64,000 bases of DNA from Phorcus lineatus. Lineage: Eukaryota > Mollusca > Gastropoda > Trochida > Trochidae. Both the position numbers and the translations under genes were made by a program. The DNA is taken from assembly GCA_921293015.1 (NCBI GenBank), contig OV121081.1:63753022-63817021 (forward strand), given 5' to 3'. Shown one piece after another: positions 57,201 to 63,200 of this stretch. Position 1 is the first letter of the stretch, and each line of letters opens with the position of its first letter. The notes beneath the pieces are model-generated. The model was given only the letters and a program-made list of their open reading frames with translations, had not been told where the DNA came from and searched no databases.

Positions 57201-60200
57201 AGGGAATAATATTGAAATTTATGTCTCAAAAACTGTCAACTGGTGAAGAAACTTCATTCAATTGCAACTATTCTTCATCAGATAAAAGGACAAGTCACTG
57301 TAAACAATACGGCGACGCTTGATGTAACAGGAAAAACAGTAAGTCTATATCTAGGTACTTGCATTTCCCCCTGAGAAGTCTTGACAAAATATATGCTGAA
57401 AGTGTTCAAAGGCCGAATAACATTCACAACTCGGCCAATAACTTTTCCATCGATTTTGACAAAATCATTGTTTTTTTACAGGTGAGGCCATCTTTGTTTA
57501 CATGAGTCCCGATGAACCTAGATGAATTTTGTTACTTATTTAGATTGTATCGTTTTTCTATTTATTAATGGACACTTCAGTAATAAAAGGAAGGAAAAGC
57601 CTTGCATATAACCACAATTAAAAACACATTTTATTCGATTACATAATGAAAATTCTCGTTTTTCGTGTGCTTAGGAAAGAAAACTTGTGAATGGAAATCA
57701 TTAATGAAATAGCTGATGAAAGTAGTCCCGGTAACGTTAAAACTCATGTATCAGCCAATCAAATCACTCGAAGGTGTTATGACACATATGTGTCATAACA
57801 GATTGTTATGAAACCCCTTTACGAAGTCCCACGTGGGTAATAATAATATCTAAATGATTAAGAAACAGGAAGAGAGTATTGGACACAAACAATGACACAA
57901 TACGAGCATGCCACATGCTGTGAATATCCTTAAATGAAATACAACTATTTGTAATATATTCTTCATATAAAGAAATAACACAATGCACAGTCTCTCCTCA
58001 ATGCGTTTGGGAATAAATTACAAGACATTTTCACTAGACTATCATTTGTGTTGGAATATGTCCAATTTTCTTTCAAATTATTACTAAATTCATTAATCAT
58101 AAATCATCTTTGTATCATGATGAAGGTTTGTAAAAGTAAGTTGCAGCAAAATTAGATAGTTTTATCAACAACAAAATATCTTTATGATAATAACCGCAAT
58201 CTAAATCATATTCAATGTCAATTTTGTAAGCATTGTTAGCAATATTTTGCTTTTCATACTAGCTATATAGCTATTAGAAGAATACAGTTACAACAAGCCT
58301 AACACTCCCCTTCAAAACTTGAATGATATCACAGTGAGATTCCCTTATACTAAGTTCTGCTACCTGCACTAATTCTGAAAGGTTGCGAAAGTATCCCTCC
58401 TCATCCACCGTGAGTCGGTTGTTGCGGTAGAGTATCCGATAGTGCTCCACCTTGTTGCCATGACAAACACACAGTGTGTAGTCCCCCGGGTAGTTGCTGC
58501 TCTCTCGTATAAGAAATAGTCCGTCCTCTGGTGGTTGAAGTAGTTCTTCAGCTCGTTGTCTAGATATCTTACCATGAAACCATCTAGAAGAAGATGGAGA
58601 TAGACACTCACACATACATGTTTTGCAATGATGGTAAGCAGAAGTACAGAACCTCTCAAGGAACTATACACTGGCTCTGATGAACATAGATTACATAACA
58701 CACATTCACAGCTTGCAATATTGGATGATAGATTACATGTACAGTACAGAAGGTTCAAGCTAAGGAAAACCAATGATAGACTTGAAGATATGAACGATTC
58801 TGGTTGCCACGGACAACCTCTGCTTCTTGTAATCTAAAACGACAATCCTTGCTGTAAGTCATGGATAAAACATGACCCTTGGGGAATATCAAGAAGTAAG
58901 AATGTTTGCCGCAGGACCTGTCCAAGAGACGGCCTTTGCCAATCATTTGCAGATTTGCTATGATTGAAATATAGTTAATTGATACTTCATCTTAATGCCT
59001 GCTGCATAGGGTGATAATGTTGATAATAACCAGCATCCCAGGGACATTAATATTACTTGAATGATTCCCTTTTTCTGTTAGCCTGAGGAAATTGAGCATT
59101 AGAATAACCTCCAAGAACCTTTGAGTGACATCATTAAACATGAACCATAAACATTTGAAGTGCTCAAGGATGGGAAGCAAGACAAGATTGAATTGCACAC
59201 AGACTGAAGTTCCACAGTTAACAACTGTAGTTGAAGAATGATAAAAGGTAACCAAATAACGCTGAGTCAGCCATCAGCAGAATGTATCATCCCAGGTTAT
59301 CCTTAACACTGATTCACTCTCAGAGACTTTCACCTAGAGTTGGAAATTTGAAACAATTATTTGAAATCATTTAGTGAAATATATTTATTTTGAGATATAT
59401 ATAATTGATAAATTCACAAAGACATCACATATTAGGTCTCACTGAAAACAGTGCTTCGGGCCCCTGATGTAAAATGCGCTGCCATGATAAAAATAAATCA
59501 AAGCTGCTGGATGAAACCAAAGAAGTTGAAAGTATTCCATTTAGAACTAAAAGTCCTTCAAAGAACGGACCATGATAAAGTATGCAACTAAGAGCAAGTC
59601 CACCTCCTCTGAACCAACACAGGGACAGATCAAACAGTCTTTCCTTAGTCTATAATCGGCAACTGCTGTCACTCAATGCAGGAAGTGGCTGCAGATTACG
59701 TAGTTCATCAGACCGACACCCACTTGAAGGTCCTCAAACAGGATGGATATCAAAGCTTTAAGCTTCCTCATGTCATACAAAACCTGCAAAACTAGGATTG
59801 TCTTCGATACAGTTAGACTTTCTGATGCGGACTTCCCACTCGTCCCTCCCATTTAACAAATCTTAAAGACTATTGTCATTAGACAAGTAATTATGGTCAA
59901 CTGCAGGGATCCACTCCAGCTATGTGAACTCAATATTTATGTTAAATTCAATCATTTCTGAGAAATATAAGTTTTCAGACTATTCCAGGGGGAACCACCC
60001 AACATCTACAAGGAACATGTTCATATCCTAGTAGTCGACATTTTGTCAATTTTAAAGCATAAATACAATTTTTTTTAGATCTTCATAGATATTTTTTTGT
60101 CATTTAATGTCTGGTGAGAGCATAGGGGCATGTTCTGTTAAACAGGTTATAACTTGTTTCATCTATTTTCTTTATTTTCTTTCAGATAAAATTCAAGAAA

Positions 60201-63200
60201 GACAATTTGCCAGAATCAACAGCTTTTTTAGTCTTTCTCAGGTTAAAGGAAAGTCAACAGAATTCAATACTTATATCCTTACTTTGATTCTGGGGAAAAA
60301 ACATGAACAAATAAAAATGGAATTTCTTAATTAGAAAAAATACCTCCATATCTGATGAAGTCTTAAAACATACATACATTTACACTAAAATAGGTCAGAA
60401 ACATTTTGCTTCAGTAACTGGAAGCCTAGAATAAATTTCAATATCTAAATAACTAAAAATATTTTATTGCAATGAAACCAAAATTATTAATATTTCCTTC
60501 TTTTTATTTTCTCGGATTGCAGTAGACACAGTTTCACTTGCTAAATGACTAAGGTCCACTGAAGGATCTTGTGATAACCAGTTCATGATGATCCACCCCG
60601 AGAACATGTGGTGATTAGTGAGCACAGAACACCATTGGCCGGATGTACACATGATAAGAAACGTCATGCTTTATACAAATCCTATGTTGTGTTCAGAGAA
60701 GATATTATGCACTTTGATAAAGGGCTTCTGAGGTTCATATTGTAATCATATAGTGAATATTATATAACATATCCATGAAATAAGAGCAAATTTTACCCAA
60801 ATGTAAATACAATTGCACTCAAACACATCATTTCAAGAGTGAGTTTGTGAGTGAAAGTTTGATTTTTAAAGCAGCTTGAGCAATATCACAGCCATGAGTG
60901 GCATTCATTTCAAGAAGAAATGTGAAACTTGCAGCCAAACATGGAGAAGAATGTAACACATATCATCCAGTGATGAGGTAATATTTGAAGAAAATTGACT
61001 CATAGTCAAATTGTCACCCAGAAAATGTGAAATATATTTGGTCATGAAGATGCTTCTGCTTAAGCTTCACAAGATAAGTTGATTCAAATGTTTCATTATC
61101 ATTCGAGTGTGTCAAATGAGCCAGTGAGGAGAACTTATTACAAATGTATCAAATGTTACATACTTAGAAAATTGTGACAAGGAGAGACAGAATTTTAGTG
61201 GTCTGAGGAAAATACAAAATTGAGTATTGAGCCTACAACCAGTACATGATATATGCACAAGGAAGCACACCAACATGCTATAGGAGAGATAATACTGGAA
61301 CAGAGAGGAATAGTCATGATTATTACATGCTTGGTTGGTAAACAAACAATAAACCCATCAACACACAGCACTGCTTAGTACAGGTTAGTACCCACGATGC
61401 AACATGACCAATCAAGGGAGACAATTCTCCATGAAAACAACAAAAATACCACTAAGAATAACTGCAATCTGATCGCATTGCACAAACAAGCCAGCCTTTG
61501 GTCAAACAACCATGCGTCTACAAAATTAGTAAAACCTCTCACTAACCATTTAAACATATTTCTTAACAAATTTTTCTTCTACAAAACAAATAAATAGCGG
61601 AAGTACAACCATTCTACATTATGACAATGGGGGTAAATACAAGCTGAGGACTGATAGAAACTAGAACACCAAGCAGCCACAAGGAAGAGAGGGACAATCC
61701 GACTGCTACCTGAACCAACTCAATCAGATTGTTAAATGTGCAGTCGCCGCCATCGACCTCAAGTTGTCGGTTGTGAGCCAGGACGCGATAGTGATCCACG
61801 CGGCCCTCAAACACTACCGAGAGTGTGTAGTCACCATGGTAGTGGACACTATCGCGAATGAGGAACACCCCGTCCTCCTGAAATCTGAGAAGGTTCTCGG
61901 CCTCCTCCCGAGTCAAACGGCCATGATACCATCTACAAGAAACAGCAGTTGTCAGTGGCAGTCTGAATGCTCTTGGCAGAACCTGGGTTCTTAGTGTAAG
62001 AGGGATTTAATCAAAATATTTGTAAATGACAATATCAATATCAAATGAAGATTATGGAGAATCTACTTTTGAACCTTAACGTACTTTATATTTGCTCAAT
62101 TCTATTTTCCTATCAACTGAATAAATGTTTAATGGATATGAGACAATCATCTAATACAATATACATCCTACTTTTGTTGTCAGGTATTATTGATATGTTG
62201 ATAAATAACAATTCCAGCAGTCCATACGTATATTAAGAGACAATGAAAAAATTAAAGCTGTTAACTTCATGTTTAATCATCATTACAAAAGATTTTAGAT
62301 AAATATCATTTCTACAGAAATACAAATAACCAAAAATAAAAAACAAATTACCCAGACTTTTGAAAAGTGTTAAAATATTAAAAGGTTCAATACAAATACA
62401 TAGAGCTTCTTTTCCCAAATCTTAATTGATGTATTTATTACATAAAATGACAAGAGATTAACAAAAATCGAAATTTTATGAAGGATAAATGACAAACATA
62501 GGGTGCAATGTCTGGCCTTAACAAGTTCTAACTACTTGGAATCAAGTCAAAGAGTGATTATCATTAAGATACCATACCCTGCAAAATTACGATGTCAAAC
62601 TATCTGCAGTACTCACGGCATGGCATGTAGAGGGACAGAGGTCCTAGGTTGCACATATGTGGCAGGGATCATCCCTTCTCTCCCAGTGCTATCTTTAGCT
62701 CGGTACCAGTTGGGGTCCTGAAGAAAACAAAACATTAGTAAGGGGAGGCAACCTTGCTTATACCAGCTGCAATATAAACATCTTGTCTTTGGAGTCTGTC
62801 ACTACATCGAGAGTATTGTTGATCAACGTCCACTTCAGCTAAACTTTTTGAACGGTAAATATTAAGGACTAAATTAGTTTATTTGTTTTGTAAAAAGTTT
62901 TTAAATTGTAAGTAATTAAAAAAAAAAATCTTTAATTCACACTTCATCACCAGTGTTTCTTGAATGGTAAAAAATGTCTTACCCTTGTTGAGCGAACAAT
63001 AAATAAAATGTCTCCCCGCTTGAAAGACAAATCCTCATGGGAATTGCCTGGGAAGTTGTAATTGGCAAGAACTTCCATTCCTTGGGTCCATGGCCCATTT
63101 GTCTGTAAACAGCAGAATAAAATAGAACAATAAGTTTACCCACAACAGTATCAGACATGTTCAGGACATGACGCTCTCTGTCTTGGCTTAAGAGTCAATG

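Follow-up and report, generated by a model that had tools for sequence, protein, structure and literature searches.

The stretch of DNA analysed here is 64,000 nucleotides of Phorcus lineatus (assembly GCA_921293015.1, contig OV121081.1, positions 63,753,022 to 63,817,021; the window). A complete Csk gene lies on its minus strand at 63,903-51,113. The gene has 11 exon positions, and position 4, which encodes the SH2 domain, is present in two copies, 4A and 4B. Judged from the sequence, a single coding exon of an otherwise ordinary animal Csk gene has probably undergone an ancient tandem duplication, after which both copies persisted as mutually exclusive SH2 exons.

Exon 4A (61,932-61,710; WYHG...LVQ) has 223 nucleotides and encodes 74 amino acids, and exon 4B (58,583-58,364; WFHG...LVQ) has 220 nucleotides and encodes 73, one codon less. 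These coordinates were exactly those of an earlier reading made without database searches (the sequence-only reading). Both exons start with AG/A-TGG and end with CAG/gtagca, and both are entered in phase 2 and left in phase 0. Exon 3 (...LHAMP) and exon 5 (HYKKDADG...) can be joined to either copy in frame, and the borders and joins proposed earlier were thus confirmed. With 4A only or 4B only, the frame stays open through to the stop codon of the kinase. When 4A and 4B are included together, the frame shifts and a stop is reached after four codons of 4B; when both are skipped, the frame also shifts and a stop is reached inside exon 5. Transcripts of these two kinds are expected to undergo nonsense-mediated decay. 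Mutual exclusion is supported because double inclusion and double skipping both reach stops. The pair shows several features of mutually exclusive exons: adjacent homologous exons, near-equal length, equal phase, and frame-breaking joint inclusion.

The near flanks of the two exons differ. In ungapped comparison, 18 of 60 bases match past the donors, seven of them in the common GTAGCAG, and 22 of 60 match ahead of the acceptors. The two exon-4 donors (CAG/GTAGCA) are identical and are the weakest of the gene's 11, with 0.34 bits compared with 1.0 to 8.5 bits elsewhere on a simple consensus table of our own making. The unusual weak GTAGCAG at both donors (61,709-61,703 and 58,363-58,357) is possibly the site of a common regulator; the motif is found at five places on the window's minus strand.

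With the shared HYKKDADG appended, the Pfam SH2 score was 95.7 bits for 4B and 79.7 bits for 4A (cut-off 21). The two exons had been described as the first part of the SH2 domain. The assignment to SH2 holds, and the exons span the whole Pfam match except its last two residues, the remainder being supplied by the shared exon 5. The top match in the PDB was Csk for both copies (126 bits for 4B and 90 bits for 4A); for 4A it was followed by SHP2 with 77 bits among the best 60 of 285 matches. The idea of 4A as a CHK/MATK-type SH2 was rejected on two grounds: it matched CHK with 63.8 bits but Csk with 90, and it has an acidic residue at position 127. Over 73 aligned residues, 4A and 4B share 39, in line with the identity of about 53% reported earlier; 4B shares 49 with human Csk, and 4A shares 36. 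With human Csk as outgroup, 17 residues were changed in 4A alone and four in 4B alone. Therefore, 4A is the fast copy and 4B the orthodox one.

The pattern of change between the copies points to coding constraint. The 94 base differences fall at codon positions 1, 2, and 3 in the numbers 24, 23, and 47, and 24 of the 39 residues common to both copies differ silently. Base identity is 57%. By the NG86 method, the nonsynonymous distance (dN) was 0.42 and the synonymous distance (dS) was saturated. The codon likelihood profile of 4A against 4B gave an omega below about 0.05, as an upper bound only, and rejected omega = 1 (2dlnL 40); the estimate ran to its boundary because dS is saturated, and the profile can therefore show no more than a strong filtering of change during the greater part of the history. 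Neutral decay was simulated 5,000 times, starting from 4B and using an assumed AT-rich mutation model, until the observed 57% base identity was reached. None of the 5,000 sequences was as similar to human Csk as 4A is (best score 106, compared with 211 for the actual 4A), and the frame was open in 104. The results strongly support divergence of the two copies under purifying constraint.

The SH2 residues were compared by their human Csk numbers. R89, R107, S109, H128, Y129, and R130 are identical in 4A and 4B, and R89, R107, S109, H128, and R130 are residues of the phosphotyrosine pocket. Since these residues are equal, the pocket, with its FLVR arginine, looks whole in both exons. The intact frames and the phosphotyrosine arginine (R107) that the sequence-only reading had seen in both copies were found again. 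Two other sites are changed in 4A. The EF loop goes from DEEGYF to DGGDCTF, with one residue more and two glutamates lost, and position 133 is Ala in 4A and Tyr in 4B. The EF loop shapes SH2 specificity, as described in passages of PMC9783222. Tyr133 takes part in the ligand-stimulated activation of mammalian Csk, according to passages of PMC10016382. Position 127 in 4A is Asp. Asn148 is kept in both copies. Met150, Glu147, and Glu154 of human Csk are replaced in both copies. Neither copy has cysteine 122 of the mammalian disulfide; in 4B a Cys stands one position earlier. Therefore, 4B too departs from human Csk at regulatory residues. Among the best 50 of 71 structure matches of the 4A model (expect value E at most 0.001), Csk structures took the first four places.

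The predicted protein has 454 residues via 4A and 453 via 4B, and Pfam found SH3, SH2, and PK_Tyr, in this order, in both forms. The closest solved structure to the 4B form was Csk (577 bits, residues 13-450), followed by an EGFR kinase chain (367 bits, kinase region only) and ABL1 (339 bits). The SH2 of 4B matched Csk with 126 bits and CHK with 108 bits in the PDB. Human Arg68, Trp188, and Cys164 are kept in the constant exons (alignment to 1k9a, positions counted by hand), and Arg68 and Trp188 are given as contact residues of Csk in parts of PMC10016382. Gly2 is absent, as the predicted protein starts with MPMDPG; a 21-residue activation-loop stretch contains no Tyr; and the tail tyrosine is absent from the C-terminus, NSLRSVKV. 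Members of the Csk family are not known to have the N-myristoylation glycine or the C-terminal regulatory tail tyrosine. The activation-loop tyrosine is also absent from the family (parts of PMC10016382). By its predicted protein, with Csk as best match, the three residues kept, and Gly2 and the activation-loop and tail tyrosines missing, the gene is a true Csk and not a Src.

A candidate RNA duplex was found between the two introns that lead to 4A and 4B. The 40 intron bases directly ahead of 4A (61,972-61,933, minus strand) can pair with 58,831-58,792 on the same strand, a candidate selector located 208 bases ahead of 4B. The duplex would have 34 base pairs (31 Watson-Crick and 3 G-U; -46.4 kcal/mol), arranged as stretches of 12, 7, 6, 1, 4, and 4 pairs separated by small mismatches or bulges. 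Within it lie the branch-point-like motif CTGAC, the pyrimidine tract, and the first base of the AG, and the 4A splice site is only one base away from the end of one arm. It is the strongest among 24 windows of 40 bases next to exon ends. Four inverted matches in the gene outscore it, three of them self-complementary and one between near neighbours; by alignment score, it is the best complementary pair in the gene with arms more than 1 kb apart. In local dinucleotide shuffles, which were chosen after the match had been noticed, 0 of 1000 shuffled introns and 0 of 1000 shuffled acceptors reached it (z -6.8 and -7.3). A further weak complement to the 4A acceptor lies at 55,616-55,588 (E 1.4), and no competing selector was found. 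A pairing of exon 3 (62,703-62,658) with the 4A donor region (61,709-61,670) at -42.9 kcal/mol is not claimed; none of 1000 shuffled targets reached this value but 2 of 1000 shuffled donors did, and the coding sequence of exon 3 is rich in purines. Mutual exclusion is supported by the frame and weakly by the candidate duplex, which we regard as a testable lead for splicing control and not as a result.

Several observations weigh against a maintained, mutually exclusive exon pair and against its control by RNA pairing. The intron between 4A and 4B has 3,126 nucleotides and the splice sites are ordinary GT-AG pairs, and neither points to an obstacle, steric or by type of spliceosome, that would prevent double inclusion. 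With dS saturated, a recent relaxation of 4A is compatible with the codon profile, and the neutral simulations depend on the 4B starting point and on the assumed mutation model. The AlphaFold confidence was moderate, with a predicted local distance difference test score (pLDDT) of 71.8 for 4A and 65.4 for 4B, and the alignments are of two sequences. For the duplex, an equally good long-range match occurred somewhere in 22 of 300 block-shuffled genes, and gene-wide the duplex is only moderately unusual. Of 324 background tiles, one located in exon 7 came to a nearly equal -45.4 kcal/mol with a partner that begins at 61,954, also within the 4A acceptor. The 4B acceptor lacks a comparable partner, its best being an ordinary -30.1 kcal/mol. 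The duplex may accordingly be chance or a decayed inverted repeat without a role; competition between splice sites, protein regulators, and decay would then account for exclusivity by themselves. The local shuffles, even as tests chosen post hoc, and the arm ending so close to the 4A splice site speak against this explanation, to which we give an even chance.

Poison splicing was considered next. Only 4B would then work, and 4A would mainly make early-stop double-inclusion transcripts that lower the Csk dose by nonsense-mediated decay, its protein being minor. The 4A+4B transcript does read four 4B codons and then stops, and double inclusion is opposed, as far as seen, only by the frame and perhaps by the duplex. 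A poison exon, however, would need no SH2 coding constraint, whereas 4A keeps the SH2 pocket and the in-frame join to exon 5, half of the differences between the copies (47 of 94) are at third positions, and omega = 1 is rejected. Poison splicing is therefore improbable. A reading of 4A as a relic is also quite improbable; it would then be an ancient alternative exon whose function was lost recently or whose splicing is no more than noise. Such a relic would fit the faster change of 4A and its lower Pfam score, but the frame, splice sites, and phosphotyrosine-pocket residues of 4A are intact, and neutral decay did not reproduce it. That 4A comes from a second Csk gene misjoined here is extremely improbable: the analysis is based on one assembly, but 4A fits the gene in order and strand and exactly in phase, and the window has no second copy of any other CSK exon, all tblastn matches with E < 1 being at exons of the model.

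For the mutually exclusive exon pair, the following mechanism is proposed. After exon 3, the spliceosome would take either 4A or 4B and continue with exon 5, and both isoforms would be made, giving two Csk kinases that differ only in SH2. The 4B form would be standard Csk. The 4A form would still bind phosphotyrosine but may read a different flanking sequence through its EF loop, and it may be uncoupled from ligand-triggered activation, with Ala in place of Tyr133. Because 4A differs as notably at Tyr133 as in the EF loop, altered regulation of activity would be as likely for it as altered recruitment. The sequence-only reading had proposed one gene making two kinases with different partners. 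The core of that reading is likely right: phase, frame, constraint, and fold strongly support alternative, selectively maintained SH2 exons in one Csk gene, and the change of partners can be called plausible by way of the EF loop. More tentatively, the duplex might hide the branch-point-like motif and the AG of 4A, loop 4A out, and favour 4B, and its opening might release 4A; the weakness of the two exon-4 donors would allow for regulation of this kind. An RNA-structure-controlled SH2 switch of this kind, in which the duplex makes 4B the default and opening yields a re-aimed, ligand-uncoupled Csk, is possible but on balance doubtful.

The nearest known case found was the exon pair of FYN. In this Src-family kinase (FynB/FynT) a tandem duplicated exon is likewise present, of which one or the other is used (passages of PMC9741552). 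FYN swaps the SH2-kinase linker and the kinase start according to the same passages, whereas the Csk gene here swaps the SH2 itself, in the kinase that holds Src kinases in check. Vertebrates have two Csk-type kinases, Csk and CHK/MATK, whose SH2 specificity differs mainly by Glu127 versus Ile167 (parts of PMC10016382). Csk and CHK are two genes, while 4A and 4B are two exons of one gene, and 4A keeps Asp at 127, so the CHK change is not repeated. Docker/selector pairing has been described for Dscam, 14-3-3zeta, and Mhc in sections of PMC6071210 and for ATE1 in sections of PMC11802352. The geometry of the candidate duplex here is that of one variant of the docker/selector model in those sections of PMC6071210: a left-intron site pairs with an internal-intron site, and the exon upstream would be looped out. 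Unlike those systems, a single pairing is proposed here, and one arm is the acceptor itself. Junction reads linking each exon to its neighbours have been used as the criterion for mutually exclusive exons (sections of PMC5740500). Among the full-text search matches listed, judged by titles and the beginnings of abstracts, no report of alternative SH2 exons in Csk was present, and 'csk' was absent from the main text of two surveys of human exons that are duplicated or mutually exclusive (PMC9741552 and PMC5740500). The class of mechanism is known; the Csk SH2 swap is undescribed as far as searched, and invertebrate database annotations of such isoforms may exist.

The remaining exons of the gene, all on the minus strand, are separated by introns that are GT-AG throughout. 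Exon 1 (63,903-63,874) has the ATG start codon and encodes 10 residues, with the donor CAG/gtaaac. Exon 2 (63,102-62,983) encodes the SH3 domain, as supported by splice sites, frame, and Pfam. By the gene model, exon 3 (62,717-62,617) encodes the end of SH3 and the linker to LHAMP and ends in phase 2, and exon 5 (56,232-56,064) encodes the SH2-kinase linker and the kinase start. The rest of the kinase is assigned in the same model to exon 6 (55,193-55,091, N-lobe), exon 7 (54,573-54,415), exon 8 (53,758-53,659, HRDLAARN), exon 9 (53,059-52,964, DFG), exon 10 (52,603-52,517), and exon 11 (51,289-51,113, kinase end and stop codon). In the intron between 4B and exon 5, a near-palindromic element of 153 bp (56,807-56,655) is 83% self-complementary and resembles a small inverted-repeat transposon.

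There was no third SH2 exon in the window, the leftover tblastn matches wholly within the SH2 part of the query having E of at least 6.8. Rfam gave nothing at gathering score over 51,000-64,000, and no tRNA genes were found in the window. Pattern searches for relatives of 4A gave one match in a viral contig and 36 in prokaryotic contigs, and those for 4B gave five in viral contigs; none was confirmed. Elsewhere, 41,372-44,220 on the minus strand is a probable remnant of a retrotransposon without long terminal repeats, with two overlapping open frames whose reverse-transcriptase and endonuclease stretches match Pfam RVT_1 and, barely at the cut-off, Exo_endo_phos_2. Downstream of CSK, 33,360-36,359 on the minus strand may contain exons of a transporter gene, similar by eye only to organic-cation transporters; Pfam Sugar_tr was matched at 35,994-36,359, and no Pfam family was matched at 33,360-34,082.

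SH2 domains determine the phosphotyrosine partners of a kinase, and in Csk the SH2 also helps to activate the kinase. If the proposed mechanism is true, the brake on Src kinases is re-aimed and re-tuned by splicing and not by gene duplication. An SH2 swap by splicing would let one gene tune Src restraint per tissue or stage. The 4A/4B pair would be a natural experiment on the EF loop and Tyr133, which mammalian work has linked to recruitment and activation, and the gene would represent a route to two Csk types besides the vertebrate CSK/MATK gene pair.

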